Under the pieces are notes generated by a model. That model was not told the origin of the DNA, ran no database searches, and was given only the letters and a program-made list of their open reading frames with translations. Below are positions 36,086-55,770 of a DNA stretch of 64,000 bases, one piece after another. The first letter of the stretch is position 1. Each line of letters begins with the position of its first letter. A program made the position numbers and the translations under genes. The DNA comes from Labrys wisconsinensis (GTDB taxonomy: Bacteria > Pseudomonadota > Alphaproteobacteria > Rhizobiales > Labraceae), in contig NZ_JAUSVX010000013.1 in NCBI RefSeq assembly GCF_030814995.1, forward strand, positions 1 through 64,000. Direction: 5' to 3'.

Positions 36086-36844
36086 ATGAAAAACCACGGT
36101 CATATATGGTCTCTTATTGCTATTGTTCTTACGCTTATCGCAGGCTACTTTCTGGGTATCGCTGCCGCGGACAAAAATGCGGTCGATTGGGCATTTAAGT
36201 GGCAGTCAATATTCGGTACGATATTGACGATGGCCGTTACCGGTGTTGGCGCGGTTTTGTTGTACACCCAGATCAGCCAAGATCGAAGAATTGAAAATGA
36301 ACGTCGACAACAACGAAACTATGCCAATCGCGCATCCCTGTCGCTCGCCCTGAGTTCCATCAGCGAATATTGTGAACATAATGTTGGAGTGTTAAGAAAA
36401 CTTATTACTCAGTGCGCAGACGGCGTGCTTTCAAACAGAATAGCCGCGAAAACCAATTTCCCGACCATTTCTGACGGCACCGTCAGTTTTCTTCGAGATT
36501 TTATTGAATACTCAAATTTTAATCAAAGTCGCCCAATAGTTAAAATATTGGCCGAGCTTCAAGTACTTGACGCGAGACTTAAATCCATGCACGTAAGATC
36601 AAATTCATTAGATCGGAGAGAGTTGATTCTTAAAATTAATATCGAGCAATACATCATTAGCAACTGTGAAATATACACATACGCTTCTAAACTCTATGAT
36701 TTCGCGCGAGAACATACCGATGAAATTTCTGAGGATTTGACGACAGACGAGATGATGAGTTCACTCAACAATCTTGGATTTCTCGGTGATGAGGCACCTG
36801 AGATCCGCGCAGCGATCCAGAGACTGTACGGAAATGTAGAGTAA
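36086..36844 (+). CDS. Two-helix membrane protein, function unknown
   Basis: 252 residues. Two N-terminal membrane segments (WSLIAIVLTLIAGYFLGIAA at about 8-27 and IFGTILTMAVTGVGAVLLYT at about 42-61) are followed by a cytoplasmic, largely helical part starting with a charged coiled-coil-like QDRRIENERRQQRNYANRA. Strongly A/T-rich codons mark it as foreign to the chromosome. This architecture is common among island proteins of unknown function. GGTGGA precedes the ATG. Confidence 0.7.
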   Translation: MKNHGHIWSLIAIVLTLIAGYFLGIAAADKNAVDWAFKWQSIFGTILTMAVTGVGAVLLYTQISQDRRIENERRQQRNYANRASLSLALSSISEYCEHNVGVLRKLITQCADGVLSNRIAAKTNFPTISDGTVSFLRDFIEYSNFNQSRPIVKILAELQVLDARLKSMHVRSNSLDRRELILKINIEQYIISNCEIYTYASKLYDFAREHTDEISEDLTTDEMMSSLNNLGFLGDEAPEIRAAIQRLYGNVE

Positions 36845-39501: not shown

Positions 39502-40311
39502 TCAGGCGGGGCCCGGCTCGCGCAGCGAGCGGCCGCTATAGGCGATGCAGGGATAGGGCTCGAGACTGTCCTGGAAATGCAGGACGCTCTCGCCCCCGTC
39601 GAGGAGAAGGACGCCGATCTGGGCCGGGCCGCCCCGATAGTTGGGCTTGGCGGGGAGAAGCTCGAAGTCGTTCTGATAGGCGATGCCGTGCAGGGTCGAC
39701 CAGGCCAGGCCGTTCCAGCACCCCGATGCCGCCCGGTGCGTATGGCCGGCGAAGACGTGGCGGACGGTGCCGGCGTCCGTCATCGCGCGGACGAGCGCCT
39801 CGGGCGCTTCGAGCCCGGCATGATCAATGAAGAACCCGGTCCTGAACGGCGGATGATGCATGAAGACATAGACCGGCTTCCGGCCCGCCTCGCGCAACGT
39901 CCGCCGGAACCAGGACAATCGGCGCGCGCAATATTCGCCGGCTTCGGAACCGGGCTTGTGGGTGTCGAGGAAGACGAGGACGCAGGCGTCCGTTTCGATC
40001 GTGCTCTGCACGAAGCCGTGCTCGTCGCAGGGCAGGTCCGGCTGCACCGTGCGGAAGATCGCCCGGTCGTCGTGATTGCCGAGGAGGCAGCGGACCGGCA
40101 TCCGCAACGGCCTCAGGCCGTCGAGAAAGGTGCGGTAGGCGGCCTCGCTCGGGACGTCGACATTGTCGCCCATCACGACGCACAGGTCGGCATCGCCGGC
40201 GATCGCGTTGATGCGGGCGACGCAGGTGTCGAGCCGTCCGGCGGAATCGATGCCGCGCACGCGCTCGCCCCGCACCCTGACGTGCGGATCGCCGATCAGG
40301 ACGACCTTCAT
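39502..40311 (-). CDS. Calcineurin-like metallophosphoesterase
   Basis: 269 residues. Binuclear metal phosphoesterase with GDPHV (D-x-H) at the N-terminus, VVMGDNVD, LLGNHDD, VFMHHPPF and FAGHTH in order, similar to CpdA/GpdQ-type phosphodiesterases. It starts five bases after the fold-III PLP-enzyme gene and is surely cotranscribed with it. A second enzyme of this superfamily lies at 59.7 kb. Substrate (cyclic nucleotide, glycerophosphodiester or other) is open. Confidence 0.85.
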   Translation of the reverse strand: MKVVLIGDPHVRVRGERVRGIDSAGRLDTCVARINAIAGDADLCVVMGDNVDVPSEAAYRTFLDGLRPLRMPVRCLLGNHDDRAIFRTVQPDLPCDEHGFVQSTIETDACVLVFLDTHKPGSEAGEYCARRLSWFRRTLREAGRKPVYVFMHHPPFRTGFFIDHAGLEAPEALVRAMTDAGTVRHVFAGHTHRAASGCWNGLAWSTLHGIAYQNDFELLPAKPNYRGGPAQIGVLLLDGGESVLHFQDSLEPYPCIAYSGRSLREPGPA

Positions 40312-40316
40312 GGCGA

Positions 40317-41486
40317 TCACCGCTCGATGAACAGGAGAGGGGTTCGTCCCCGCATCATCAGCAGCACGTCGTTCATCGACGAGCCTTGCCAGCCGGCAAG
40401 ATCGGCGAGCGTGATCGCGAGCCCTCCATCCGCGCCGAGAATGGTGACCTCGTCGCCCACCGCCGGATACGGCACGTCCGAAAGATCGAGCACGGCCTGC
40501 TCGGACGAGACCGACAGGACCGGCGCCTTGACGCCCTTGACGAGGGCGAAGGCGGATCGGCCCGGCGCCGCGACGGGATGGCCGTCCGCGCGGCCGAAGG
40601 GGACGACGCCGGTCGGGCCGGTGACGAGATCGGCATAGCGCAGGGCCGTGCCGGGCGTCCGGTCGGCAGCGTCCGCCGACAGGTGGATGATGCGGGTGCG
40701 CACGGCGGACAGCACGGGACGGAGCCCGGACACGTCGGCCATGGCGAGGGGAAGCGAGGTCTTGCCGAAGAGGAGGCTGCCGGGGGCGACCGCGTTGCAG
40801 CCGTCCTCGATGCCGTACAGGATTCCGGAGCTGGAACGCGCCTGCGTGACCGGGATATCCAGGCCCCTCGCGCGCAGCCTCCCGACGAGATCGCCGAAGC
40901 GCCGCGTGCGCTCCCGGGCAAAGGCGGCCCCTTCGGCGTCGGCGAAGGGCAGATGGGTGTAGAGGCCCTCGATGACGATGTTGGGCATGCGTGCGATCGA
41001 CAGGATCGTGTCCTCCGCCGTGCGGATCGGGAGGCCGAGCCGGCCCCGGCCGGAATCGACCTTGACATAGACCCGGGTCGGCCCGGTCGCGGCGGACGAG
41101 ACGGCCTCGGCCAATTCGAGCTGATGCACGGTCGGGATGAGGCCGAGCCGGAGGAGCGCCGGAATGCCCGCGGGCAAGGTGCTGCCGAAAATGACCAGGT
41201 CGGGCCGGTCCAGGCCGGCGCGGCGAAGCATCCCGGCGTCCGCGCAGGAGCCGCAGAAGATCGTCCGGGCGCCGAGCTCGACGAGCCGCTGCGATAGTTC
41301 GACGAGACCGTGGCCGAAGGCCGCGCTCTTCACGCAGGGGATGATCCTGACATCGGGACCCACCATCGCCCGGATCACCCCGAAATTGTGATCGAGCGCC
41401 CGGAGGTCGATCTCCATCCAGTTCGGACGCGTCGGATCGATCGACCGCCTGTCGGGAATGACCCGCTCGTCCATGGCATCGTTCAT
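40317..41486 (-). CDS. Alanine racemase-like fold-III PLP enzyme lacking the racemase Tyr
   Basis: 389 residues. N-terminal TIM-barrel part with the PLP lysine K53 in CVKSAAFGHG (canonical VVKADAYGHG), VKVDSGRGRLG and a C-terminal beta-domain. The second catalytic base of alanine racemases, Tyr in GYADG, is replaced by Arg (R299 in FGRADGHP), and the ICMDQ loop is SVSSEQ. It is therefore unlikely to be a normal alanine racemase. It could be a racemase or another PLP enzyme for an unusual substrate. AGGGA lies upstream of ATG 41486. The neighbour downstream is a phosphoesterase five bases away. Confidence 0.75.
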   Translation of the reverse strand: MNDAMDERVIPDRRSIDPTRPNWMEIDLRALDHNFGVIRAMVGPDVRIIPCVKSAAFGHGLVELSQRLVELGARTIFCGSCADAGMLRRAGLDRPDLVIFGSTLPAGIPALLRLGLIPTVHQLELAEAVSSAATGPTRVYVKVDSGRGRLGLPIRTAEDTILSIARMPNIVIEGLYTHLPFADAEGAAFARERTRRFGDLVGRLRARGLDIPVTQARSSSGILYGIEDGCNAVAPGSLLFGKTSLPLAMADVSGLRPVLSAVRTRIIHLSADAADRTPGTALRYADLVTGPTGVVPFGRADGHPVAAPGRSAFALVKGVKAPVLSVSSEQAVLDLSDVPYPAVGDEVTILGADGGLAITLADLAGWQGSSMNDVLLMMRGRTPLLFIER

Positions 41487-41588
41487 CGCGCTTCCCTGCC
41501 TGTGAGGTCCATGGCGCCTGCCGGACATGCCGGCGAAGGCACCGGTCTCGCGGCAATCGCAGCCGCCGCCTTCGCTCGCCTCAGAGAT

Positions 41589-41687: not shown

Positions 41688-42605
41688 TCAGGCTTCGGCC
41701 CCGGCGGACTCCAGCGCCGTCACCTTCCGGCACAGCCTCGAAAGCCATCGGCAGAAGGCCCGGGCGAGGTCCGGATTGTGGCTGCGGTCGACGGCATAGG
41801 CCCGGTACTGCATGCCGCTGGGAGCCCGCGAGCCCGGCAGGACTTCCAGAAGCCCCTTGCCGATCAGATCGGCGACGACGATCTGCGGCGTCACCAGCAG
41901 GGCCTGCCCGGTCGTGACCGCCGGCAGCGCGAGATAGTGATGGTCGTAGCGCGCGCCGGAGATGATGTCCGCGGTCTTCATGTCCATCCCGCGCAGCCAG
42001 GCCGGCAGGATGTCGGGCCGGGAGGTGACGGCGAGGACCGGCGTGGTGCGCAGGGCCTCGAGCCCGCGCCCGGCGACGCAGTCCGGCGCCCCGACGCAGA
42101 CGAGCTGCTCGTCATAGATGTCCCAGCGATCCGCCGGCTCGGTCAGCACCAGGTCGCGCGTCACCAGCACGTCGAAACTGTCGGTCGAGACCGGCGCCGA
42201 GAGCGCGCTGATGACGTCGACGACCACCCCGCCCATCTCCTGGGAAAAATCCCGCAGGTTGGGGATGAGCAGCGTATAGGCGAAGGTCGACAGCGACGTG
42301 CGCACCACCAGGCGGCTCGTCCCGGCCCGGTCGTTTCGACGCATCCGCTTGGCGGTGAACAGGATCGATTCCAACGGCTCGGTGACGGCGTCGGCGAACA
42401 GGCGCCCGAAATCGGTCAGCACGCTCTGGCGCCCGCGCCGCTCGATCAGCTTGGTTCCGAAATAGGCTTCGAGGACGGCAAGGTGGCGGCTGATCGAGCT
42501 CTGGGTGATGCCCAGGCTTCGCGACGCCCGCGTCACGCCGCCGTCCCGGGCGATCTGGACGAAAGCGCGCACGGCATTGAGCGGCAGGTCGCCATTGTCC
42601 GGCAT
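41688..42605 (-). CDS. LysR-family transcriptional regulator
   Basis: 305 residues, normal LysR length. The N-terminal winged HTH is visible as LNAVRAFVQIARDGGVTRAS then RSLGITQSSISRHLAVLEAY and the LTDFGRLF wing. The rest is the effector-binding domain (TTPVLAVTSRP, LALPAVTTGQALLVTP). It is divergent from the ABC/M24/phosphonopyruvate-hydrolase genes, the normal position for their regulator, with an inverted repeat between them. In Variovorax a LysR regulator likewise accompanies phosphonopyruvate hydrolase. Confidence 0.88.
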   Translation of the reverse strand: MPDNGDLPLNAVRAFVQIARDGGVTRASRSLGITQSSISRHLAVLEAYFGTKLIERRGRQSVLTDFGRLFADAVTEPLESILFTAKRMRRNDRAGTSRLVVRTSLSTFAYTLLIPNLRDFSQEMGGVVVDVISALSAPVSTDSFDVLVTRDLVLTEPADRWDIYDEQLVCVGAPDCVAGRGLEALRTTPVLAVTSRPDILPAWLRGMDMKTADIISGARYDHHYLALPAVTTGQALLVTPQIVVADLIGKGLLEVLPGSRAPSGMQYRAYAVDRSHNPDLARAFCRWLSRLCRKVTALESAGAEA

Positions 42606-42674
42606 GGATCGCCCTCCCCCGCGCTGCGCTCGGTCAATCCGGAATCATCGCATTCATATCGAGTTATGCGATGG

Positions 42675-42705
42675 TTGCGACGGATTTGTAATTGATCGGT
42701 CGCAA
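42675..42705. promoter_or_regulatory. Candidate LysR operator
   Basis: TTGCGAC (42675-42681) and GTCGCAA (42699-42705) form a perfect 7-bp inverted repeat around an A/T-rich centre, in the 200-bp divergent region between the LysR gene and the ABC ATPase. Dyads of this spacing are typical LysR recognition sites. Confidence 0.55.
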
Positions 42706-42805
42706 AGATCGCCGATACATCCCGTCATACTAAAATCTGCGTGAACGCAAACCTTTCATCGTCGATCACGGGGCGGTCTCAGAGTCGCCGATAGAGGACC
42801 ATGCC

Positions 42806-43981
42806 ATGGCGACGATTTCCATCCAAGGAATACAAAAGTCGTTCGGCGCGACGACCGTGCTTCGCGATGTCTCTCTGGAAATCGCCGACGGCGAATTTCT
42901 GACGTTGCTTGGCCCCTCCGGCTGCGGAAAGTCGACCTTGCTTCGAATTCTCGCCGGGCTGGAGATCCAGACCGGCGGCACGGTGTCGATCGGCGAGCGC
43001 AGCGTGGACGGGTTGCGGCCGAAGCGGCGCGACGTCGCCATGGTGTTCCAGTCCTATGCCCTCTACCCGCACATGACGGTCGCCGCCAACATGGCGCTGC
43101 CGCTGCGCATGCGGCGCCTGTCCTCCTGGCAAAGGCTTCCCCTGGTCGGCCGGCTGCTGCCCGGCACGCGCCGGGCGGCGGCGGAGATCGAGGCGGACGT
43201 CGTGCGCACCGCCCGGGCGCTCGACATCGGCCATCTCTTGGCCCGCAAGCCCGGGCAGCTCTCCGGCGGCCAGCGCCAGCGCGTCGCGGTGGGCCGGGCC
43301 ATGGTGCGCAGCCCCGCGGTGTTCCTGATGGACGAGCCTTTGTCCAACCTCGACGCCAAGCTGCGCGTCCAGATGCGCGCCGAGATCAAGGAGCTGCACC
43401 GGCGCCTCGGCGTGACCTTCGTCTACGTCACGCACGACCAGTCGGAAGCGATGACGATGTCGGACCGCGTCGCGGTCATGCTGGACGGCGATCTGCTGCA
43501 GGTGGCGCCGCCGCAGGAGATCTACGCCGATCCGAACGACCGGCGCGTGGCGGAGTTCGTCGGCTCGCCGCGGATCAACATGCTGGCCGGGACGGTGCGC
43601 GACAAGGGCACCGTCGATGCGGCCGGCACGGCATTCGCCGTCGACGCCGATGCCCCGCCCGGAACGGCCGTGAGCCTGGGCATCCGCCCGGAGGCGTTCC
43701 GTCCGGCGGATGCGGGCGGCCCGAACACGCTGACCGGCTCGGTCCGGCTGATCGAGCACATGGGCTCGGACCTTTTCGTCCATCTCGACGTGCCGGGGTG
43801 CGAGGCCCCGGTCATCGCCCGCCTGCTGGCCGAGCGGGCGCCGCACATCGAGGTGGGGCAGGTCCTGCATCTCGGCCTTCAGCCGGAGCGTGTCCTCGTC
43901 TTCGCCGCGGACGGCCGGCGCCTGCTCCCGAACGGCGCTCATCGCGCCACGGTCGTCAGGATCCGGGGGACCGGGCGATGA
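42806..43981 (+). CDS. Carbohydrate-type (UgpC/MalK family) ABC transporter ATPase
   Basis: 391 residues. Walker A GPSGCGKSTL near residue 37, Q-loop FQSYALYPHM, signature LSGGQRQRVAVGRAMV, Walker B VFLMDEPLSNLD, H-loop VTHDQSEAMT. The C-terminal MalK-like part (about 240-391) shows GSPRINMLAGTV and LGIRPEAF. A ~22-residue insertion (RMRRLSSWQRLPLVGRLLP) sits in the helical domain. Its permease partners have been deleted downstream, so it probably cannot work with its own operon unless other permeases substitute. Confidence 0.85.
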   Translation: MATISIQGIQKSFGATTVLRDVSLEIADGEFLTLLGPSGCGKSTLLRILAGLEIQTGGTVSIGERSVDGLRPKRRDVAMVFQSYALYPHMTVAANMALPLRMRRLSSWQRLPLVGRLLPGTRRAAAEIEADVVRTARALDIGHLLARKPGQLSGGQRQRVAVGRAMVRSPAVFLMDEPLSNLDAKLRVQMRAEIKELHRRLGVTFVYVTHDQSEAMTMSDRVAVMLDGDLLQVAPPQEIYADPNDRRVAEFVGSPRINMLAGTVRDKGTVDAAGTAFAVDADAPPGTAVSLGIRPEAFRPADAGGPNTLTGSVRLIEHMGSDLFVHLDVPGCEAPVIARLLAERAPHIEVGQVLHLGLQPERVLVFAADGRRLLPNGAHRATVVRIRGTGR

Positions 43982-44159
43982 CCGGCACGGCATCGACGGC
44001 GCCGCTATCCGGCCCGCGCCCCTGCAGGCCGTGATCCTGCCCGTGCCCGGCCCGGTCTTCGTGCCCGTCGCGCCGGGGACCTTCATCGCCTTCCCGGGCG
44101 CCCGGCACCGGTTCGTCGAAGGCCTGACGGGCGGCGCAGCGAAACAGGCCCTTCTTTAA
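43978..44159 (+). pseudogene. Fused remnants of two deleted ABC permease genes
   Basis: An ATG overlapping the ATPase stop (ATGA) starts MTGTASTAPLSGPRPCRP, a plausible N-terminus for the expected first permease, but stops after 18 codons. In another frame the next ~40 codons end with ARHRFVEGLTGGAAKQ, the characteristic C-terminus of a MalG/UgpE-type permease (FVxGLTAGAVKG). The typical operon order ATPase-permease-permease-binding protein is thus collapsed to a ~180-bp scar. I infer one deletion of about 1.7 kb removing nearly all of both permeases. Confidence 0.65.
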
Positions 44160-44188
44160 GACCGTTTCAGACCCGAGGGAATCGATCC

Positions 44189-45442
44189 ATGCCCAGGCTG
44201 TTCAGCGTCACCGCGGCGATGTTCCTATCTCTGCTCGGCCCCGCCCTCTGCGCGGCCGACGCCGGGGCTGCCGACCTCGATGTCCTCTACTCGGCGTCCA
44301 ACCTGATCAATCCGGTGCAACGGGCGTTCAAGCAGCGCTTCGAGAGCACCCATGCCGGCGCCCGGGTCAGCCTCGAGCCCACGCTCGAATACAACGACAC
44401 GCTCGCCATCGCGCTCCGGCAATCCCTGATCGGCGCGGGCCACGACGTCGGCTATTACGGCGTCTCCGACCTCTGCCTCCTGGCGGAGCGCGGCATCGCC
44501 AAGCCGATCGACGCGCTGATCGAGAGCGACCCGCAATGGCGCACGCTCGGCATTCCCGAGAAGCGGCTCGGCGTCACCCGCTGCAACGGCGCCACCTACG
44601 GCATCCCCTTCAGCGCGTCCTTCATGGTCGTTCTGTTCAACAAGACGCTGGTCGCGCAGGCCGGCGGCGATCCCGCCAGGTTTCCCAGGACCTGGCCGGA
44701 CATCCTGGATCTGGCCAGGAAGATCAAGGCCAGGAGCGGCGGGATCGCCATGAACTACGAAGGCTCCTCGAGCTGGAGCTTCATGACCCTGGTGCTGAGC
44801 CGCGGCGGCAGCATCCTGAGCGCGGACGGCAAGGACATCGCGTTCGACTCCAAGGAAGGTCTGGAGGCGCTGCAGATCCTGGCGGGTGCGGGGGCCGCGC
44901 GAGACCACGCCGATCTGACGAAATCCCAGGCGCGCCAGGCCTTCGTCTCGGGCGCCCTGGGCATCCTCGTCGATTCGTCGAGCGGCATCGCCGAGTACAA
45001 GAAGAACATCAACGGCGTCTTCGAGATGGGCATCGTGCCCTATCCGGTTGCGCCGACCGGCGGGATTCCGGCGTCGGGCATGGCGAGCGTCCTGCAGGCC
45101 TCCTCTCCCGAGAAGCAGAAGCTGGCGTGGGACTACATGAAGGACTCCGCCTCTCCCGACGGGCAGACGGTCCTCGGCAAGATGACCGGCTTCCTGCCGT
45201 TCAACGAGATCGCCATCCAGGCGCCGGACAAGCTGGGCGACTACTACGCGCAGAATCCGGAAATCAGGGTCGCCGCCGAGAGCCTCGACAATGCGGTGGC
45301 CTGGCCGAGCTTTCCCGGCCCCAACGGCCTGAAGATCCATCAGATCATCATGGGCTACATGCAGAAGGTCTACAACGGCGCCATGGCGCCGGATGCCGCC
45401 CTTGCCGGCATGGCCCGGGACACGAGGGCGCTGCTGAGATGA
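44189..45442 (+). CDS. Extracellular solute-binding protein, family 1
   Basis: 417 residues. Signal peptide (LFSVTAAMFLSLLGPALCAA, cleavage near 23-28). Mature part DLDVLYSASNLINPVQRAFKQ at its start, GIPFSASFMVVLFNKTLVAQ and TWPDILDLARKIK are hallmarks of the sugar/glycerol-phosphate-type binding proteins (UgpB group). The Asn/Trp-rich hinge residues and AFVSGALGILVDSS follow. GAGGGA precedes the ATG. Members of this group bind sugars or glycerol-3-phosphate. Here the permeases are missing, so the protein may be orphaned. Confidence 0.85.
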   Translation: MPRLFSVTAAMFLSLLGPALCAADAGAADLDVLYSASNLINPVQRAFKQRFESTHAGARVSLEPTLEYNDTLAIALRQSLIGAGHDVGYYGVSDLCLLAERGIAKPIDALIESDPQWRTLGIPEKRLGVTRCNGATYGIPFSASFMVVLFNKTLVAQAGGDPARFPRTWPDILDLARKIKARSGGIAMNYEGSSSWSFMTLVLSRGGSILSADGKDIAFDSKEGLEALQILAGAGAARDHADLTKSQARQAFVSGALGILVDSSSGIAEYKKNINGVFEMGIVPYPVAPTGGIPASGMASVLQASSPEKQKLAWDYMKDSASPDGQTVLGKMTGFLPFNEIAIQAPDKLGDYYAQNPEIRVAAESLDNAVAWPSFPGPNGLKIHQIIMGYMQKVYNGAMAPDAALAGMARDTRALLR

Positions 45443-45494
45443 GGCGGCCTCGCTCACCCCTCCCCGTCCGAGCGACCGCCGGAAGGAGCCGATC

Positions 45495-46784
45495 ATGAAC
45501 GGTGGCAGCCATGCGGGCGCGGGACACGCACCGCGGCAGGACGGCCTCGCCTCCTCGTCGGTCGGGGATATCCATCCGCCCTCGCGGCCGGGCCGATATG
45601 ACTTGGACATCGAGCGCCTGCATCGCTACCGCGTGGCGCGGCTGCACGGCGAGATGGACAAGCGCGCCTGCGACGCGCTGCTGCTCTTCGATCCCGTCAA
45701 CATCCGCTATGCGACGGGCGCCCGCAACATGCAGATCTGGACCATGCGGCACCCCGCCCGCTATTGCCTCGTCCTCCGATCGGGGACGATCGTCCTGTTC
45801 GAGATCGGCGGCCGGGCCCACCATGCCGCCGGCCTGCCCCTGATCGACGAGGTGCGCGTCGCCCGGCCGTGGTTCTACTACTATGCCGGCCCCGGCGCCC
45901 CGGACCACGTCCGGGAGTTCGCCGGCGAGATTGCCGATCTCACCGGGTTCCCCCGAACGAGCCTCGCCAAGCCGCGCCTCTATGTCGATCGGTGCGACCG
46001 GCAGGGGATGCGGGCGCTGGAGGATCAGGGGCTGATCGTGCTCGACGAAGCCCAGGAGCTGATGGAGCAGGCCCGGTCGATCAAGTCGGAAGACGAGATC
46101 TCGGCCATACGCATGGCGATCGACGTCTGCGAGACCGGCATCGCGCGGATGAAGGCCGAGCTCCGCCCGGGCATCACGGAGCTCCATCTGTGGTCGAAGC
46201 TGCACCAGGCCAATATCGAGCTCGGCGGCGAATATATCGAGACGCGTCTGCTCACCTCCGGGCCGCGCACCAATCCCTGGCACCAGGAAGCGAGCCAGAA
46301 GGAGATCCGGGCCGGCGAGCTCGTCAGCTTCGACTGCGACCTGATCGGACCGCTGGGCTACGGAGCGGACCTGTCGCGCGCCTTCGTCTGCGCGGACCGG
46401 CCCTCGCCGGTGCAGAAGGGCCTGTATCGGCTGGCCTATGATCAGATCGCCTTCAACACCGCGCTGCTGCGCGTCGGCACGTCGTTCGCCGAGATCATCG
46501 AGAAGGCGCGATACCTGCCGCAGGACTATCGGCAATGGCACCGTGTCGCCCATGGAAACGGCATGAGCACCGGGGAATTCCCGGCCATCGGACGGCGCCC
46601 CGGCTATGCCGAAGGCTCGATCCATCAGGGCCGGATCGAAGAAGGCATGGTGTTGTGCGTCGGCACCTTTGCCGGGCGCCGCGACGGCGGAGAAGGCGTC
46701 AAGCTGGAGCACCAGCTCGTCATTCGGGCCAACGGCCCGGAGCTCCTGTCTTCGTCGCTCGACGATCCCGACTTCTGCACCTGA
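45495..46784 (+). CDS. M24 (pita-bread) family protein, DddP/creatinase-like, lacking one metal ligand
   Basis: 429 residues. N-terminal creatinase domain followed by an M24 domain. Residues align by spacing with the iron ligands of the DMSP lyase DddP: D280, D282 (FDCDLIG), D292 (GADLSR), H353 (AHGNGM) and E405 (KLEHQ). The remaining ligand position, normally Glu in VES/VEP, is Gly390 (LCVGTFAG). The family includes X-Pro aminopeptidases, creatinase (metal-free) and DddP. With one ligand lost a peptidase or lyase reaction is uncertain. GGAAGGAG precedes the ATG. It lies 89 bases before phosphonopyruvate hydrolase, so a role in the same pathway is likely. Confidence 0.78.
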   Translation: MNGGSHAGAGHAPRQDGLASSSVGDIHPPSRPGRYDLDIERLHRYRVARLHGEMDKRACDALLLFDPVNIRYATGARNMQIWTMRHPARYCLVLRSGTIVLFEIGGRAHHAAGLPLIDEVRVARPWFYYYAGPGAPDHVREFAGEIADLTGFPRTSLAKPRLYVDRCDRQGMRALEDQGLIVLDEAQELMEQARSIKSEDEISAIRMAIDVCETGIARMKAELRPGITELHLWSKLHQANIELGGEYIETRLLTSGPRTNPWHQEASQKEIRAGELVSFDCDLIGPLGYGADLSRAFVCADRPSPVQKGLYRLAYDQIAFNTALLRVGTSFAEIIEKARYLPQDYRQWHRVAHGNGMSTGEFPAIGRRPGYAEGSIHQGRIEEGMVLCVGTFAGRRDGGEGVKLEHQLVIRANGPELLSSSLDDPDFCT

Positions 46785-46873
46785 TCATCGCCGAGATCGG
46801 CAGATACCGGGCGCAGGACGCGCTGCGAGCGCCGCATCTTCCGTATCCGTCGAACGTTGCGAAGGACAACAGA

Positions 46874-47746
46874 ATGGGCCAAGGCAGGACACTCAAGGAC
46901 GGGTTGGCCGAGCGCGGCCTGCTCCACGTCATGGCGGCGCATTCGCCGCTGTCGGCGCGGCTGGCGGAGGAGGCCGGATTCGACGGGGTCTGGGCCTCGG
47001 GCTTCGAGCTCTCGGCGCTCTACGGCCTGCCCGATGTCAGCCTGATCTCGATGACCCAGCATCTCGACATGGTGCGCGCCATCGCCTCCCAGTCGGCGCT
47101 GCCGATCGTCGCCGACATCGACACCGGCTTCGGCAACGCCCTCAACGTCATCCATGCCGTCGAGCACTACGAGCGCGCCGGCGCCGCCGCCGTCGTCATC
47201 GAGGACAAGACCTTTCCGAAGGTCACCAGCCTCGTGGCCGGCGGGCGCCAGGAGCTGCTGCGCATCGAGGAGTTCCAGGGCAAGATCGAGGCGGCGGTGG
47301 CGACCCGCCGCGACCGGGACTTCCTCGTCATCGCCCGCACCGAGGCGCTGATCGCCGGGCGCGGCCAGGAGGAGGCCCTGACGCGGGCGGCGGCCTATGC
47401 GGCGGCCGGCGCCGACATGATCCTCGTCCATTCCAAGCAGAGGACACCCGACGAGATCGAGCGCTTCGTGCGCGCCTGGACCGGCGCGGCGCCGCTCGTC
47501 ATCGTGCCGACCGCCTATCCCGACATGAACGAGGCGCGCATCCGGGCGCTCGGCGGGATCGCCATGGTGATCTACGGCAATCACGCCCTGCGAGCTTCGG
47601 TGACGGCGATGCAGGACGTGTTCGCCCGCATCCGCCGGGACGGCGGCATCCACCATGTCGACCGCGACATCGTGCCGGTCGAGGAGATCTTCCGGCTGCA
47701 GGGGATGGACCGGGTGAAGGACGACGAGGCGCGCTTCCTGCGCTGA
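46874..47746 (+). CDS. pphA: Phosphonopyruvate hydrolase (PEP mutase/isocitrate lyase superfamily)
   Basis: 290 residues, the length of the Variovorax enzyme. Splits phosphonopyruvate to pyruvate and phosphate. Superfamily blocks: IVADIDTGFGN near residue 78 (metal Asp), EDKTFPKVTSL near residue 112, RQELLRIEEFQGKIEAA, VIARTEALIAG. PEP mutases have Asn-Ser after EDKx5; here Thr-Ser, as in phosphonopyruvate hydrolase. FARIRRDGGI and VPTAYPDMNEA also resemble that enzyme. GAAGGA lies seven bases before the ATG. An aminotransferase that would feed phosphonoalanine into the pathway is not found nearby. Confidence 0.85.
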   Translation: MGQGRTLKDGLAERGLLHVMAAHSPLSARLAEEAGFDGVWASGFELSALYGLPDVSLISMTQHLDMVRAIASQSALPIVADIDTGFGNALNVIHAVEHYERAGAAAVVIEDKTFPKVTSLVAGGRQELLRIEEFQGKIEAAVATRRDRDFLVIARTEALIAGRGQEEALTRAAAYAAAGADMILVHSKQRTPDEIERFVRAWTGAAPLVIVPTAYPDMNEARIRALGGIAMVIYGNHALRASVTAMQDVFARIRRDGGIHHVDRDIVPVEEIFRLQGMDRVKDDEARFLR

Positions 47747-47797: not shown

Positions 47798-48934
47798 TCA
47801 CAGAAGCCGGCGCCCGGCGATCCAGATGGCGCGGATCGTCGGCACGCCGCCGACCAGCCGCACGCGCAGGAGGTCGGCCCTGAGGCCCGGCGCGATCCGG
47901 CCGCGGTCGCCGAAGCCCAGAACATCGGCCGGATTGGCGGAGACCATCGCGATCGTCTGGGGAAGATCGAGCCCCAGGGCGGTGAGCTTGAAGGCGGCGT
48001 CGAGCAGGCTGCCCGGCACATAGTCCGACGTCAGGACGTCGAGCAGGCCCCGCTCGGCCAGCTCGATGGCGCTGACATTGCCGGAATGGGAGCCACCGAG
48101 GACGACGTTCGGCGCGCCCATGACGATGGTCATGCCGAGCTCGCGCGCCCGCCGGGCGGCGGCGGCCGTGGTCGGGAATTCGCTGATGCCGACGCCGTTG
48201 GCATGCGACTCCTCGACATCGGCCACGGTCGTGTCGTCATGGCTGGCGATCGGGATGTTGCGGCCGTTGTAGATCTCGCCGAGGCGGGCGCGGCTCGGCG
48301 GCACGAGCTGGCGCTGATTGGCCTGCCGCTCGGCGAGATAGAGCCCGAACTCCTCGTCGCTCCACACCCGGGCGCTCTTCTTGCGGCGGAACTCGCGGAA
48401 GAGCGCCAGGTCGTGCCATTGGCGCTGTCCGGGCGTGTGGTCCATCAGGCTCACGAGCCTGACCTGATCGTTGTCGACGTGGCGATCGAGGATCGGCATC
48501 AGCCCGGGATCGGACAATTCGCAGCGGAAATGCAGGTAGTGGTCGGCGCGGAGCAGGCCGGCGGACCGGGCCTGGGTCAGGGCCCCGATCACCCCATCGA
48601 GCATGGCGGTCCGGGCGCCGGCGCTGTCGTAGTCGCCGAGCGAGAGGGCGTCGAGCACGGTGGTGACGCCGGCGCCGAGGACTTGCCAGTCATGCGCGAG
48701 CACCGCCGAAAGCATGGACGGCCATCGCACCGCCGGGCGCGGATGGGCGTGATGCTCCACATTGTCGGTGTGGAGATCGACCAGGCCGGGAATGAGGAAA
48801 TCGCCTTCGCAATCGATGGTGTCGCGGTCCGCGCCCGCGACGGCCTCGGCGAACAGGCCGTCGCGGATGGCCAGGCTATCCTCGACGACGGCGTCGGTGC
48901 GCACGATGCGGGCATTGGCGAGCAAAAGGGTCAT
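47798..48934 (-). CDS. phnM: PhnM-family amidohydrolase (RPn-triphosphate diphosphatase)
   Basis: 378 residues. PhnM hydrolyses alpha-D-ribose 1-methylphosphonate 5-triphosphate in C-P lyase pathways. Family marks: LIPGLVDLHTDNVEHHAHPR near residue 55 (metal His; the DNVE motif is PhnM-specific), DHTPGQRQ near residue 165, ASHDDTT near residue 230 and VMGAPNVVLGGSHSGNVSA near residue 275, TSDYVPGSL after it. None of phnG-L is visible, so it is an orphan. The ATG overlaps the DeoR stop (ATGA), so the two are translationally coupled. Confidence 0.88.
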   Translation of the reverse strand: MTLLLANARIVRTDAVVEDSLAIRDGLFAEAVAGADRDTIDCEGDFLIPGLVDLHTDNVEHHAHPRPAVRWPSMLSAVLAHDWQVLGAGVTTVLDALSLGDYDSAGARTAMLDGVIGALTQARSAGLLRADHYLHFRCELSDPGLMPILDRHVDNDQVRLVSLMDHTPGQRQWHDLALFREFRRKKSARVWSDEEFGLYLAERQANQRQLVPPSRARLGEIYNGRNIPIASHDDTTVADVEESHANGVGISEFPTTAAAARRARELGMTIVMGAPNVVLGGSHSGNVSAIELAERGLLDVLTSDYVPGSLLDAAFKLTALGLDLPQTIAMVSANPADVLGFGDRGRIAPGLRADLLRVRLVGGVPTIRAIWIAGRRLL

Positions 48935-49803
48935 CGGCTTGCGGTGCTCTCGGAATCGGTTCCATCTGCGGTGCTGTTTTCGCTCTGCCGGGGTAACAGA
49001 ACGGTGACATTCGCCCGATCGAGCGCCGCCGCCAGGTCCCGGGGCGGCGGCGCGTCGGTCGCGAGGACGTCGATCGCGTCGAGCGGCAGCACGACGTGGG
49101 CGTCGCGCCGGCCGAACTTGGCGCTGTCCGCGACGACGGCGATCCGGTGGGACCGGTCGCACAAGGTCCGGACCAGCACGTTGTGGCCCATCGTCGGCCC
49201 GAGGACGCCGTGGGTCGCGCTCACCGCGCTCGCGCCGAAGACGTAGAGATCGAACAGCCGATGCTCGAGGCTCTTCAACAGCTCGAAGCCGCCGACCGTG
49301 CGGGTCTGCGGGTTGACCACGCCGCCGAGCAGGGTCACGGCACACCGGCCGGACGCGGCCGTCACCATCGCGATGTCGATCATGTTCGTGGTGATCGTCA
49401 GCGTCCTCTCGCTGCGGGCGAGCTCTTCGGCGACCATCAGCATGGTCGAGCTCGCGCCGAGATAGACGCTCATCTCGTCCTCGAACAGCGCCAGCGCCGC
49501 CCTGGCGGCGCGCTGCTTGGCCTCGCGGTCGACGGCGAGGCGTTCGACCACCGGGCGCCGGGCGGTGAGATCGAAGGTGCGCTTGGGCGCGGCGCCGCCA
49601 TGCACCCGGCGCAGACGGCCGGCGTCCTCGAGGCTGCGGATGTCGCGCCGGATGGTCTCCTGCGAGACGCCGAACCGGTCGGCGAAGTCGCCGACGGAGA
49701 CGATCTCGCCGCGGTTGATCAGCTCCAGGATGACGCGCTGGCGCTCCGCGCCGATGACGGGTCCGCCCCGGCCCGCCGCTGAGCCCCCGTTCCGGCCGGC
49801 CAT
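48931..49803 (-). CDS. DeoR-family transcriptional regulator (copy 1)
   Basis: 290 residues. N-terminal DeoR HTH: RQRVILELINRGEIVSVGDF, FGVSQETIRRDIRSLEDAG, LRRVHGGA. C-terminal DeoRC sugar-phosphate-sensing domain: GASSTMLMVAEEL, TTNMIDIAM, GGVVNPQTRTVGG and DSAKFGRRDAH. DeoR proteins usually sense phosphorylated sugars or similar phosphates. It is cotranscribed with phnM and divergent from the peptide-type ABC operon. A paralogue lies at 57.3-58.0 kb in the same layout. Confidence 0.9.
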   Translation of the reverse strand: MAGRNGGSAAGRGGPVIGAERQRVILELINRGEIVSVGDFADRFGVSQETIRRDIRSLEDAGRLRRVHGGAAPKRTFDLTARRPVVERLAVDREAKQRAARAALALFEDEMSVYLGASSTMLMVAEELARSERTLTITTNMIDIAMVTAASGRCAVTLLGGVVNPQTRTVGGFELLKSLEHRLFDLYVFGASAVSATHGVLGPTMGHNVLVRTLCDRSHRIAVVADSAKFGRRDAHVVLPLDAIDVLATDAPPPRDLAAALDRANVTVLLPRQSENSTADGTDSESTASR

Positions 49804-50107: not shown

Positions 50108-51676
50108 ATGGCGGACTTTTCCGTGACGAGGCGACAGGCGGTCATCGGCGGCCTGGCCGGCGGCCTGCTCGGCGCCGCCGGCGTGAGAGCTGCGCCCGCC
50201 AGGGAATCGCAGCGCCTCACCGTCGCCATGTCCGGCTTCCCGCCGGCGGTGGAGCCCGCCCTGTTCAACCACACGGCCACCCGGCGGGTGGTGCCGCAGA
50301 TGTTCGACACGCTGATCGCCTTCGATCAGACCGCTGGCATGGGGCTGCGTCCGGCGCTGGCGGAACGCTGGCAGCGGCTGGACGATCGCTCGCTGCGCCT
50401 GTTTTTGCGCCGCGGCGTGACCTTCCATGACGGCAGCCCGTTCACGGCTGAGGATGTCGCCTTCTCGCTCGGGCCCGATCACGTGCTCGGACCGAAGCGG
50501 TCCGGCCAGGCGACGGCGATCCAGACCCTCGACACCATCGACCGGGCCGAGATCGTCGACGACCATACCGTCGTGGTGCACGCCAAGGCCAACGATGCGC
50601 TGCTGGAGCAGCGTCTCGCCTCGTGGGGGGCGGAGATCGTCGGCAGCCGCGCCTTCCAGGCCGCCGGCTCCTGGGACAAATGGACGGCCGCGCCGGTCGG
50701 AACCGGGCCCTATCGCATCGTCGGCCAGCGGCTCGACATCGACGTCACCCTCGCCGCCCATGACGGCTATTGGGGCGGCCGCCCCGCTTTCCGCAGCATC
50801 GAATACCGCATCGTTCCCGAGCTCGCCTCGCGCATCAACGCGCTGGTGACCGGCGAGGTCGACCTCATCACCGACCTGCCGCCGGACCAGTTCGCCGACA
50901 TCGCCGGCCGGCCGGGGCTGGAGGTGGTGGGCGGCGCGGTGCAGAACATCCGCTCTCTCGGCATCGACCAGACAGCGCCCGTGTTCAGGGATCCGCGCCT
51001 GCGCCGGGCCCTGAGCCTGGCGCTCGATCGCAAGCTCTTCGTCGACGCGCTCTGGGATGGCCGCGTCCCGGTCCCCAACGGCTTCCAGCTGCCGAGCTTC
51101 GGCGCCGGCTATATCGAGGACTACCCGGCGCTCGCCTATGATCCGGAGCTCGCCCGCCAGCTCGTGCGCGAAAGCGGCTATGGCGGCGAGCCGATCACCT
51201 ACCGGCTGCTCAACAACTATTACACCAACCAGGTCTCCGGGGCCCAGACGATGCTCGAGATGTGGCGGTCCGTCGGCCTCGACGTCAGGATCGAGATGGT
51301 GGAGAACTGGACGCAGATCTACCGCAAGCCGGTGAATGCGATCTACGACAATTCCTGCACGGCGATCTTTCCCGATCATCTCGGGCAGGCCTGGCGGGTG
51401 TTCGGGCCGAACGGCGAGATGCCCAGGCAGAACGGCATCTGGAAGAACGACGAATATTTCGGGCTGGGCACGCGCCTCAAGGAGAGCACGGACGTGGCGG
51501 AGCGCCGCCGCATCCTGCGCCGGATGCTCGAGATCATCGATCGCGACGATCCGCCCTGCGTCATCCTGCACGTTTCGGGACAGTTCTACGGCAAGCGCCG
51601 CGACCTGCCCTGGGTGCCGGGGCAGACGCTCGATCTGAATTTCGGGCCGTCCAACCAGGCCTTCGCCCAGAACTGA
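50108..51676 (+). CDS. Peptide/nickel-type ABC transporter substrate-binding protein (family 5, copy 1)
   Basis: 522 residues. Tat-like signal (VTRRQAVIGGLAGGLLGAAG with a twin Arg, about 6-30). SBP_bac_5 blocks: LAERWQRLDDRSLRLFLRRG, VTFHDGSPFTAEDVAFSL, VGTGPYRI and DGYWGGRPAF, ending with a conserved LNFGPSNQAF. It is closely paralogous to the protein at 58.2 kb (both have VPNGFQ and a WRSVG/WRTVG-type segment). First gene of the dppA-D-F-B-C-like operon. The ligand is unknown; the group binds peptides, nickel-opines, glutathione, oligosaccharides and others. Confidence 0.88.
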   Translation: MADFSVTRRQAVIGGLAGGLLGAAGVRAAPARESQRLTVAMSGFPPAVEPALFNHTATRRVVPQMFDTLIAFDQTAGMGLRPALAERWQRLDDRSLRLFLRRGVTFHDGSPFTAEDVAFSLGPDHVLGPKRSGQATAIQTLDTIDRAEIVDDHTVVVHAKANDALLEQRLASWGAEIVGSRAFQAAGSWDKWTAAPVGTGPYRIVGQRLDIDVTLAAHDGYWGGRPAFRSIEYRIVPELASRINALVTGEVDLITDLPPDQFADIAGRPGLEVVGGAVQNIRSLGIDQTAPVFRDPRLRRALSLALDRKLFVDALWDGRVPVPNGFQLPSFGAGYIEDYPALAYDPELARQLVRESGYGGEPITYRLLNNYYTNQVSGAQTMLEMWRSVGLDVRIEMVENWTQIYRKPVNAIYDNSCTAIFPDHLGQAWRVFGPNGEMPRQNGIWKNDEYFGLGTRLKESTDVAERRRILRRMLEIIDRDDPPCVILHVSGQFYGKRRDLPWVPGQTLDLNFGPSNQAFAQN

Positions 51677-51737
51677 CCATCGACTGCATTGGGACGAGGC
51701 GGCCTTTGCCCTGGCCGCCGGAACAGCGGCTGCCGTG

Positions 51738-52970
51738 ATGCCCCATTCGACGCCTCGCCACAACATGCCGGCGCGCACGGTCCCGGCCGGCAGCGCCGCG
51801 CCGCCGCTCCCACCAGAGGCCGCTCCGCGGCCTCCCGCACCAGAGGCCACTCCGCGGCCTCCCGCACCAGAGGCCACTCCGCGGCCTCCCGCACCAGAGG
51901 CCGCTCCGCGGCCTCCCGCACCAGAGGCCGCTCCGCGGCCTCCCGCACCAGAGGCCGCTCCGCGGCCTCCCGCACCAGAGGCCGCTCCGCGGCCTCTGGT
52001 GGAGATCGCCGATCTCTCCGTCGCCTTCGACGGCGTGACCGTCCTGCACGGGATCGACCTGACGGTGGCGCGGCGCGAGACGCTCGGCCTGGTCGGCGAA
52101 TCCGGCTGCGGCAAGTCGGTGACCTGGCTCGCCGCGCTCGGGCTGCTGCCCCGCAGCGCCGGGGTCACCGGCAGCGTCCGCCTCGACGGCCGGGAGCTGA
52201 TCGGCGCGCCGGCGGCGGACCTCGACCGCGTCCGCGGCGGGCGCATCGCCATGATCTTCCAGGACCCGGCGAGCTCGCTCAATCCGGTCATCCCCATCGG
52301 CCGCCAGGTCGGCGAGGCCCTCGCGCTGCACCGCGGCCTGTCCGGCGGCGCGGTCCGCGCCGAGGCCAGGCGGCTGTTCGATCTCGTCGGCATTCCCGAT
52401 GCGGCCCGCCGTCTCCACGCCTTTCCGCACGAGCTCTCCGGGGGCCAGAACCAGCGGGCGATGATCGCCATGGCGCTGGCCGGCCAGCCGGACCTGCTGG
52501 TCGCCGACGAGCCGACGACCGCGCTCGACGCCACGATCCAGGCGCAGATCCTCGATCTCATGGCCTCGATCCGCCGCGAGACCGGCATGGCGATCGTGCT
52601 GATCAGCCATGACCTCGGCATCATCTCCGAGACCTGCGAACGCGTCCTGGTGATGTATGGCGGCCGCATCGTCGAGGCGGCGACCGCCGAAGCGCTGTTC
52701 GCCGCGCCGCTGCATCCCTATACGCGCGGCCTGCTCGCCGCCCTGCCACCCCTGGAGGGCGCGCGCCGTCGCCTGGAGCCGATCGAAGGCCAGGTGCCGG
52801 GTCCGCTGGACATGCCGCCCGGCTGCGCCTTCGCGCCGCGCTGCCCGCACCGTCTCGGCGTGTGCGAGGCCTCGGTGCCGCGGCTGGCCGAAATCGCGCC
52901 GGGGCGCCTCGCCGCCTGCGTCCTGTCGGAGAGCCGCATGACGATGCCGGCCAAGGCGGCGACGGCATGA
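51738..52970 (+). CDS. Peptide-type ABC ATPase (DppD-like) with repeat-encoded N-terminal extension
   Basis: 410 residues from ATG 51738. Walker A GESGCGKSVT, Q-loop FQDPASSLNP, signature LSGGQNQRAMIAMALA, Walker B LLVADEPTTALD and the DppD/OppD C-terminus with the PPGCAFAPRCPHRLGVCE iron-sulfur-like cysteines. The first ~88 residues are a 9-residue Pro/Ala repeat (APEAAPRPP) not found in the family. A GTG at 51999, right where the ATPase domain starts (VEIADLSVAF), is an alternative start. No strong ribosome site marks either. The stop overlaps the next start by four bases. Confidence 0.85.
   Translation: MPHSTPRHNMPARTVPAGSAAPPLPPEAAPRPPAPEATPRPPAPEATPRPPAPEAAPRPPAPEAAPRPPAPEAAPRPPAPEAAPRPLVEIADLSVAFDGVTVLHGIDLTVARRETLGLVGESGCGKSVTWLAALGLLPRSAGVTGSVRLDGRELIGAPAADLDRVRGGRIAMIFQDPASSLNPVIPIGRQVGEALALHRGLSGGAVRAEARRLFDLVGIPDAARRLHAFPHELSGGQNQRAMIAMALAGQPDLLVADEPTTALDATIQAQILDLMASIRRETGMAIVLISHDLGIISETCERVLVMYGGRIVEAATAEALFAAPLHPYTRGLLAALPPLEGARRRLEPIEGQVPGPLDMPPGCAFAPRCPHRLGVCEASVPRLAEIAPGRLAACVLSESRMTMPAKAATA
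51813..51996 (+). repeat. 27-bp hairpin tandem repeat (six full copies plus one partial)
   Basis: Units start at 51813, 51840, 51867, 51894, 51921, 51948 and 51975. Each holds GAGGCCGC-TCC-GCGGCCTC, a perfect 8-bp hairpin. Units 2 and 3 differ only by G to A (GAGGCCAC). The length is a multiple of three, so the frame stays open and encodes a 9-residue Pro/Ala unit. It lies between the binding-protein gene and the ATPase core. Confidence 0.95.
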
Positions 52971-53956
52971 CCGAGGTCCTGCTCGAGCTGCGCGACGTCT
53001 CGCGGCGCTATGCGATGCGGCAGGGGATATTCGGCCGCACCGCGTCCGTCGGCGCCGTGGACGGGGTATCTCTCTCGGTCGAGCGCGGCCTGACGCTCGG
53101 CCTCGTCGGCGAATCCGGCTCGGGCAAGTCGACCACCGGCCGCCTCGCCCTCGGTCTCGAACGGCCCGACGGCGGCGACGTCCTGTTCCGCGGCGCGCCG
53201 TTGCCGACGGCGGGAAGCGCGCGCTGGCGGCGGCTGCGCGCCGACATGCAGATGATCTACCAGGATCCTCTCGGCGCGCTCGACCGCCGGCTTTCCATTC
53301 TCGAGCAGGTCCGCGAGCCCCTGGACGTGCATCGGATCGGCGACGCGCGGGGACGGGAGGCGAAGGCGCTGGCGGTGCTGGACGCGGTGCGCCTCGGCGC
53401 CGACCACGGCCGCCGCTATCCCCACGAGCTGTCCGGCGGCCAGCGCCAGCGTGCCGTCCTCGCGCGCGCCCTGGTCACGGATCCCGATCTCCTGGTGTGC
53501 GACGAGCCGGTCTCGGCGCTCGACGTGTCGATCCAGGCCCAGGTGGTCAACCTGCTGCTCGACATCCAGCAGGCGGCCGGCCTCGGCCTCCTCTTCATCA
53601 GCCACGATCTCCGGGTGGTCCGCCATGTCAGCCACCGCCTGGCGGTGATGTATCTCGGCCGCATCGTCGAGGCCGGCGAGACCGACCGCGTGCTGTCCGC
53701 CCCGGCCCATCCCTACACGGAAGCGCTGGTCTCGGCCGCTCCCGTCCCCGGGCGCCGGGCGCGGCGCATCATCCTGGACGGCGATCCGCCGAATCCGGCG
53801 GCGCGGCCCCCGGGCTGCGCCTTCCATCCGCGCTGCCGCGCCGTTCGCGAGCGCTGCAGGGTGGAGAGCCCGGCCCTGCTGGCGCTGGCGGACGGGCGCC
53901 TCGCCGCCTGTCACGTGGCCCATGAGCAGGCCGGCTTGCGGAAGGCGGCCGGCTGA
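52967..53956 (+). CDS. Peptide-type ABC ATPase (DppF-like)
   Basis: 329 residues. Walker A GESGSGKSTTGRL, Q-loop YQDPLGALD, signature LSGGQRQRAVLARAL, Walker B LLVCDEPVSALD, H-loop ISHDLRVVRHV, and the C-terminal PPGCAFHPRCRAVRERCRVE of OppF/DppF-type proteins. It forms the second nucleotide-binding subunit with the upstream DppD-like protein. ATGA overlap upstream, TGATG overlap downstream. Confidence 0.9.
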   Translation: MTEVLLELRDVSRRYAMRQGIFGRTASVGAVDGVSLSVERGLTLGLVGESGSGKSTTGRLALGLERPDGGDVLFRGAPLPTAGSARWRRLRADMQMIYQDPLGALDRRLSILEQVREPLDVHRIGDARGREAKALAVLDAVRLGADHGRRYPHELSGGQRQRAVLARALVTDPDLLVCDEPVSALDVSIQAQVVNLLLDIQQAAGLGLLFISHDLRVVRHVSHRLAVMYLGRIVEAGETDRVLSAPAHPYTEALVSAAPVPGRRARRIILDGDPPNPAARPPGCAFHPRCRAVRERCRVESPALLALADGRLAACHVAHEQAGLRKAAG

Positions 53957-54888: not shown

Positions 54889-54889
54889 C

Positions 54890-55762: not shown

Positions 55763-55770
55763 GCCCAGCC

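Follow-up and report, generated by a model that had tools for sequence, protein, structure and literature searches.

The question raised by this locus is what a gene for a phosphonopyruvate hydrolase (PPH) does beside a LysR regulator, ATP-binding cassette (ABC) transporter genes, an M24-fold protein and an alanine-racemase-like enzyme, when no aminotransferase gene is found among them. The locus is located on contig NZ_JAUSVX010000013.1 of Labrys wisconsinensis, of which a stretch of 64,000 nucleotides (hereafter the window) was analysed, and the system was placed at 39.5-57.2 kb. To our knowledge the PalAB route of phosphonoalanine breakdown has been studied in very few strains, and we know of no clear source of phosphonoalanine on land. 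For Variovorax, the PalAB pathway and its LysR-dependent induction are described in a review (PMC10574752). The analysis presented here indicates that the stretch is probably a reshuffled and partly decayed version of a soil-bacterial gene set for phosphonoalanine uptake and breakdown. Close relatives of this gene set adjoin phosphonate synthesis genes on plasmids of root-nodule bacteria, a connection that we regard as the main lead to emerge from the work.

The identity of the protein encoded at 46874-47746 (+ strand) is the basis for any answer. In comparison with curated models it scored 410.2 bits against TIGR02321, above the cut-off of 374.4, whereas the scores for phosphoenolpyruvate (PEP) mutase (292.2, cut-off 319.6) and PrpB (173.7, cut-off 354.4) did not reach their cut-offs, in agreement with the original prediction, made by a model from the DNA alone, that this is a phosphonopyruvate hydrolase. 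A Thr-Ser rather than an Asn-Ser pair in the EDKx5 motif separates PPH from PEP mutase activity, and the window protein, with EDKTFPKVTS, indeed carries the EDKx5-Thr-Ser form that had been claimed for it. This form was present in 88 of 122 aligned family proteins, including the window protein and the structure 2dua, while EDKx5-Asn-Ser occurred in 22 rows, including the PEP mutases 1m1b and 5unc, Ser-Ser in four and other forms in eight. Its closest solved structure is the phosphonopyruvate hydrolase 2dua, the chain of which is nearly identical to a protein of V. paradoxus VAI-C that shares 61% identity with the window protein; the nearest relative overall is 82% identical over 277 residues. 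A phylogeny, proposed earlier as a check, was built as a quick maximum-likelihood tree with moderate support, and it places the window protein with the Thr-Ser proteins in a group of 90 rows (Shimodaira-Hasegawa-like approximate likelihood-ratio test, SH-aLRT, 85), outside the 27-row group of PEP mutases (83) and apart from methylisocitrate lyase as well. The Variovorax PPH branches apart from both the 90-row and the PEP mutase groups, and thus the tree alone does not join the window protein to Variovorax PalA. Judged from its sequence, the window protein is a PalA-type phosphonopyruvate hydrolase.

The gene neighbourhood supports this identification. A single scan of genome contigs returned 200 PPH relatives, of which the best 80 loci were kept, some of them with short flanks, and the presence of accompanying genes was judged at identity thresholds set in the script (for PalB, at least 45% within the fetched flanks). 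PalB, which does not accompany every PPH, was found in 33 of these loci, LysR in 31, UgpC in 20, UgpA and UgpE in 19 each, and OppA in nine. The window genes follow the predicted layout, with the LysR regulator (41688-42605, - strand; PalR-like) diverging from a UgpC/MalK-type ATPase (42806-43981, +; NF008653 399.8 bits, cut-off 432), and with the ATPase, a substrate-binding protein (SBP), the M24-fold protein and PPH all on the + strand. Identity to the counterparts in PPH loci reaches 83% for LysR, 79% for UgpC, 68% for OppA, 79% for OppB and 75% for OppC, so that the survey, also suggested by the original prediction, reveals a regulator and transporters of the kinds that stand beside PalB and PPH elsewhere. 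Moreover, a putative LysR operator, ATCG-N7-CGAT, lies in the LysR/ugpC intergenic region at 42658-42672 (position -67). Thirteen of the fetched loci have a LysR of 72% identity or more, and all of them except L048 show this pattern between -59 and -91; among the 17 fetched loci with a less similar LysR, only one does. The S. meliloti plasmid has it at -73 and that of P. zundukense at -68.

A very different reading would reject the phosphonate assignment altogether and give this hydrolase-like protein some other 2-oxo acid substrate from the range of the isocitrate-lyase superfamily. Such a reading could draw on 23 of the 80 loci, mostly from Reyranella/Enhydrobacter kin (L035, L041, L052, L055, L056, L058, L059, L063, L064, L067-L069, L071, L073-L076, L078-L083), in which a 68-72% identical protein of the Thr-Ser clade adjoins a methylmalonyl-CoA-decarboxylase-like carboxyltransferase subunit (identified in L074) without any of the probed phosphonate genes. 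The window protein, however, has its regulator, transporters and phosphodiesterase kin in common with PalB-PPH loci, and a relative of the Na/Pi symporter (identified through L005) occurs near PPH in seven of the 80 loci, as would be expected if phosphate were released. We therefore regard an activity on another 2-oxo acid as very improbable.

With regard to uptake, two features had escaped the original prediction. In relatives the usual gene order is UgpC, UgpA, UgpE and SBP; in the window the Ugp-type set consists of the ATPase and a divergent SBP_bac_8 substrate-binding protein (44189-45442, +; PF13416), both permease genes being gone, and the gap after ugpC holds a UgpE-like stretch of about 25 codons (44067-44144, +). 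This stretch scores 8.2 bits at the last 25 positions of the UgpE profile, the best of 2000 six-frame shuffles reaching 4.0, and blastp gives weak matches in one frame to the UgpE C-termini of five loci (E 0.003-0.010). From these similarities, the Ugp importer of the window is broken and the stretch is taken as the scar of the lost permease genes. A UgpA relative (78% identity) is found at the extreme end of contig C14 of the same genome, where it is cut by the contig end; just before it lies a xylose-isomerase-like TIM barrel gene (L158:8182-9997). The second feature is a complete Opp-type transporter at 50108-55762, a type that accompanies PPH elsewhere, composed of an OppA-type binding protein (50108-51676, +; PF00496), which is 61-68% identical to the OppA of nine PPH loci, and of the OppD, OppF, OppB and OppC genes (51735-55762, +; PF00005, PF08352, PF00528). 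By similarity, relatives of both importer types that accompany PPH are present in the window, and as candidates for a dedicated importer they differ in that the Ugp type has no permeases there, while the Opp type is complete and related to the Opp genes of PPH loci.

Such losses may also be read as a sign that the whole locus is a decaying remnant, in which the permeases were deleted, the aminotransferase was separated and the window copy no longer works as a pathway. Besides the permease scar, the dispersal of relatives would fit this view, since PalB, SBP and phosphodiesterase relatives are located on contig C11 and the UgpA relative at the end of C14, and no protein above 39% identity to PPH was found in four genomes of the same genus, so that the locus was probably acquired and reshuffled. 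On the other hand, the LysR, UgpC, SBP, M24, PPH, racemase-like and Opp genes are all open frames, rich in G+C at the third codon position; no gene of the Opp transporter is missing, and the operator is kept. Loss of function therefore seems rather unlikely, and a rearranged catabolic system is preferred.

The most conspicuous gap is the aminotransferase. The original prediction had noted its absence, and this holds for the window, where a PalB query gave no match and nothing of the kind adjoins the hydrolase; the same query matched elsewhere in the genome, an ortholog of 69-70% identity being present on contig C11. Its neighbours there are a binding protein, which shares 59% identity with that of a PPH locus, and a phosphodiesterase, which shares 66% with the one encoded in the S. 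meliloti operon. An aminotransferase-free route had been put forward instead, in which the M24 protein and the racemase-like pyridoxal phosphate (PLP) protein would turn a peptide or N-substituted phosphonoalanine, or some other phosphonate, into phosphonopyruvate. In its favour, the M24 gene (45495-46784, +; PF00557) is adjacent to the hydrolase, as predicted, standing directly between SBP and PPH on the same strand and ending 89 bases before PPH, and the racemase-like gene, which a profile search confirmed just beyond the regulator (40317-41528, -; PF01168/PF00842), follows LysR where many relatives have PalB. Key residues are changed in both proteins, as a new reaction would need, and PPH has other partners elsewhere, namely a CoA-transferase with a citryl-CoA-lyase-like protein (L021, L025) and a MocR-like aminotransferase-domain protein (L010). 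However, since a PalB ortholog exists in the same genome, a route without aminotransferase is not supported; in addition, S. meliloti and P. zundukense have both PalB and a racemase-like ortholog, which thus does not take the place of PalB there, and no counterpart of the M24 gene was found near any other PPH. This route is accordingly judged improbable, and transamination by a PalB acting in trans is favoured.

The M24 protein itself gives little reason to expect a peptidase. Its best NCBIfam match is DddP, from which it departs in score (286.3 bits, cut-off 600) and in a lost metal ligand; its closest solved relative is the M24 protein 4s01. Five residues bind metal in M24 proteins, and in the window protein both D, the H and one E are kept while the other E has become G, a position occupied by Glu in all 49 other distinct M24 relatives aligned. 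No relative was found in the plasmid PPH stretches compared, and, the protein itself aside, searches of 72,556 plasmid records, 385 class genomes and 100 relatives gave nothing above 52% identity. With the metal-binding Glu lost and no counterpart of the gene found in other PPH loci, the protein is a doubtful peptidase, and a peptide substrate processed by it was set aside. The earlier suggestion of phosphonoalanine-containing peptides is not borne out, given this loss and the recurrence of phosphodiesterases, not peptidases, beside PPH. From the comparisons made, the M24 gene is a private addition to the system.

The racemase-like gene shows a different distribution. Only two of the 72,556 plasmid records contain a match at E <1e-40, and both carry PPH: the orthologs share 63% and 53% identity and belong to the PPH plasmids of P. 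zundukense and S. meliloti. The gene that follows it in the window, for a calcineurin-like metallophosphoesterase (39502-40311, -; PF00149), is 60% and 57% identical to those beside the racemase-like genes on the same two plasmids. On S. meliloti pRRI128_3 the run reads metallophosphoesterase, alr, SBP, UgpE, UgpA, UgpC and phosphodiesterase, divergent from LysR, PalB and PPH; in P. zundukense the racemase-like gene lies about 17 kb from PPH among many binding proteins and transporter fragments, with UgpE fragments adjoining it. These shared arrangements indicate that the racemase-like and metallophosphoesterase genes do belong to the PPH system, which upholds part of the variant-route idea. 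Replacement of PalB by the racemase-like gene was rejected, as both are present together in L172 and L173, and this co-occurrence in S. meliloti and P. zundukense implies that the protein adds to PalB there rather than substituting for it, so that the other part of the idea falls. In the alignment the PLP-binding Lys is kept, and a Tyr of two PDB racemases is Arg in the window protein and in both PPH-linked orthologs; 11 further relatives, from a sample of 372 genomes, have neither Tyr nor Arg at that position. This Tyr is catalytic in alanine racemase, and its change to Arg means that the protein is not a standard alanine racemase; we infer that the Arg may meet the phosphonate group of the substrate.

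A further indication of the substrate is provided by the phosphodiesterases. The window encodes one of the alkaline-phosphatase superfamily (55759-57213, +; PF01663), which is 35-37% identical to the phosphodiesterases of four PPH plasmids, three of which have theirs beside ugpC. On the plasmids examined, the enzymes that recur beside PPH are phosphodiesterases and not peptidases, and the substrate is thus probably an ester of phosphonoalanine.

Taken together, we consider it reasonably likely, though by no means certain, that the 39.5-57.2 kb region is a rearranged version of a system by which alphaproteobacteria break down a phosphonoalanine compound, with a phosphonate ester as the likeliest candidate. 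In such a system, the LysR protein would sense phosphonoalanine or phosphonopyruvate, by analogy with the regulator of Variovorax; import of the compound would be the task of the Opp-type transporter and, before its permeases were lost, of the Ugp-type one as well; the phosphodiesterases encoded at 39502 and 55759 would release free phosphonoalanine; and the racemase-like PLP enzyme lacking the Tyr could act on the same amino acid, perhaps fixing its configuration. PalB from contig C11 is predicted from orthology to convert phosphonoalanine into phosphonopyruvate by transamination, and the hydrolase at 46874 is expected from its family membership to split the latter into pyruvate and phosphate.

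Several observations weigh against this interpretation, in addition to the lack of PPH relatives above 39% identity in the four genomes of the genus. The racemase-like gene is absent within the flanks of all 80 PPH loci and the metallophosphoesterase has one 36% match there, which makes both of them rare partners of PPH; a PF01663-type phosphodiesterase occurs in five of the 80, and that of the window is only 35-37% identical to the plasmid ones; the M24 protein has no counterpart in the 80 loci at E 1e-15. The binding protein at 44189-45442 is at most 38% identical to the binding proteins of PPH loci and plasmids, so that its ligand may differ. Finally, the operator pattern is common in itself, being found five times in the window against 3.58 expected, which is not rare, and in the upstream regions of 58 out of the 501 genes called in the loci compared, and the argument drawn from it therefore lies solely in its fixed place.

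The system can be compared with those already known. It resembles the pal genes of Variovorax sp. Pal2 (PalA, PalB, PalR and a transporter) in its hydrolase family, LysR regulator and ABC importer. It differs from them in having PalB in trans, in its Opp- and Ugp-type importers, which are not of the type annotated in VAI-C, in a LysR only 37% identical to that of VAI-C, and in the addition of phosphodiesterases, the racemase-like protein and the M24 protein. Closer likeness is found to the rhizobial plasmids S. meliloti pRRI128_3, S. medicae pMl2 and P. zundukense p_unnamed3, which carry LysR, UgpC and PPH orthologs, two of the three having the racemase-like gene and metallophosphoesterase as well. 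Unlike the window, these plasmids have at least one full annotated permease set and PalB between LysR and PPH, and no M24 relative was found on them.

It is on such plasmids that a link to phosphonate synthesis appears. About 19 kb from PPH, the S. meliloti plasmid carries aepX (PEP mutase) followed by genes for an aminotransferase, a phosphocholine-cytidylyltransferase-like protein, a CDP-alcohol transferase and a short-chain dehydrogenase/reductase. In Streptomyces, PepM with an aspartate-aminotransferase-like partner makes phosphonoalanine, according to PMC11867202. Orthologs of the five synthesis genes (73, 58, 58, 53 and 51% identity) are located on contig C7 of the L. wisconsinensis genome, where two methyltransferase genes follow, as in M. 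huakuii. Among 72,556 plasmid records, PPH occurs at 60% identity or more in 35, and 84 were matched by a PEP mutase query. The two genes coincide in at least 15 records; among the matches listed, their distance is 6-33 kb in 14 and 110 kb in the fifteenth, and in those of the 14 that were examined the PEP mutase gene belongs to a phosphonoalanine-type synthesis cluster. The hypergeometric probability for 15 shared records (42 and 84 of 72,556) is 2e-34, for records that are related and not independent. Among 397 genomes of the order, at E 1e-95, PPH was found in 11 and PEP mutase in 14, with both in five, L. wisconsinensis included (hypergeometric 1e-5, uncorrected for kinship), and three of these five have the two genes no more than 31 kb apart on a single contig.

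Rhizopine (mos/moc) and agrocinopine systems combine linked genes for the synthesis and breakdown of inosamine or sugar phosphodiester compounds. The plasmid relatives resemble them in the close proximity, on plasmids from nodule isolates, of genes that may make and break down one and the same unusual compound. It can tentatively be proposed that the window genes are the consuming half of a comparable phosphonate economy, although we would not put this forward as the likelier interpretation. Its making half would lead through PEP mutase, aminotransferase, cytidylyltransferase and CDP-alcohol transferase to an ester of phosphonoalanine, in some strains under NifA control in nodules; its consuming half, in the same or neighbouring bacteria, would comprise importer, phosphodiesterase, PalB and phosphonopyruvate hydrolase; and private genes such as those for the M24 and racemase-like proteins would match the tailoring of each strain's compound. 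If so, this would be the first carbon-phosphorus compound known to us in such a role, and it would account for the high nodule expression of M. loti pepM, a gene that nitrogen fixation does not require. In any case, PPH loci tied to phosphodiesterases and to a synthesis cluster on root-nodule plasmids provide a concrete candidate source of phosphonoalanine and a testable substrate.

Evidence for nodule control is mixed. A sigma-54-like site with at most one mismatch, preceded at 40-200 bases by a NifA-type upstream activator sequence (UAS), was found upstream of aepX in five of 21 clusters, all from Mesorhizobium (five of the six tested in the genus), and when every locus of at least 8 kb was scanned in this way (1873 gene calls), seven hits were obtained, among them these five aepX sites. 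Four of the five have similar sequences, and hence the count amounts to little beyond one case plus M131. The scan can also miss real promoters, as in a control the nifH of R. gallicum had a UAS without a good sigma-54 site and a nearby ferredoxin gene a good site without a UAS. According to Sullivan et al. 2013 (PMC3538637), nodule expression of pepM, aatA and asnB in M. loti R7A is high but poor in a nifA2 mutant (827 versus 7.7 units for pepM), and mutants in these genes form an effective symbiosis. These authors class the three genes as lacking a NifA promoter and consider direct activation by NifA highly unlikely, which goes against the promoter proposed here for this strain, and the word phosphonate does not occur in the available text. 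In two nodule transcriptome papers, induction of transporters for phosphonate or glycerol-phosphate is described and attributed to phosphate limitation. A proposal linking PPH to synthesis clusters was not found in the accessible parts of the literature on PPH, phosphonoalanine, rhizopines, opines and nodule phosphonates.

Applied to L. wisconsinensis itself, the link meets further objections. Its synthesis genes and PPH are on different contigs, no NifA-type promoter was found upstream of its own PEP mutase, and its genome has no nifH over the cut-off, so the organism does not appear as a nitrogen-fixing symbiont, whereas many of the plasmid relatives come from nodules according to their source lines. 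The separate contigs and the lack of a nifH over the cut-off, together with a phosphonate in place of an inosamine or sugar phosphodiester, also distinguish the present case from the rhizopine and agrocinopine systems.

Synthesis-type genes were also seen on other plasmids. The Ti plasmid pTi_CFBP1905 contains aepX, aminotransferase, cytidylyltransferase and CDP-alcohol transferase genes (L194:6941-12149), and PEP mutase matches occur on at least 14 Agrobacterium plasmid records; an annotated 'alanine racemase' of pTi_CFBP1905 was discarded as a counterpart, having no significant similarity to the racemase-like protein of the window. Plasmid pRtrCIAT899b of R. tropici CIAT 899 has a PEP mutase relative (L196:5986-6849) in the neighbourhood of nifQ and rpoN; upstream of this gene are a NifA-type UAS and a sigma-54-like site with two mismatches.

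Other neighbours of PPH were recorded in the survey. In L021 (8014-10873) and L025, which share the same gene clusters, genes for a family III CoA-transferase and a citryl-CoA-lyase-like protein are directly followed by PPH, a set that would fit release of phosphonopyruvate from a phosphonomethylmalate-like acid; in L025 a PEP mutase is located some 4 kb beyond PPH. Four Bradyrhizobium PPH-like proteins (L010, L014, L017, L044) have EDKx5-Ser-Ser instead of Thr-Ser. A neighbour of one kind adjoins all four; in L010 its match to the MocR-like regulator EhuR is confined to the aminotransferase part, and a PhnF-type regulator was identified in L010 as well.

Within the window, a PhnM-like amidohydrolase gene (47798-48934, -; TIGR02318 478.9 bits, cut-off 390.6) is convergent with PPH and stands beside a DeoR-family regulator (48931-49803, -; PF00455, PF08220). 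Membership of both in the system is uncertain: the 80 PPH loci contain no PhnM relative at E 1e-15 and one 30% match to DeoR, and a search confined to the window found no other carbon-phosphorus lyase gene among the genes scanned. Acyl-homoserine-lactone (AHL)-lactonase-like and RtcB-like genes at 37-39 kb were rejected as members, as the 80 loci contain nothing similar at E 1e-20 and the plasmid stretches used for comparison have no match of at least 35% identity. A methylaspartate ammonia-lyase (59988-61814; TIGR01502 above cut-off), encoded after an Opp-type binding protein, has about 200 extra residues before its domain in the open frame. A 252-residue open frame at 36086-36844, perhaps foreign, has a much lower G+C content at all codon positions than the genes that follow it.

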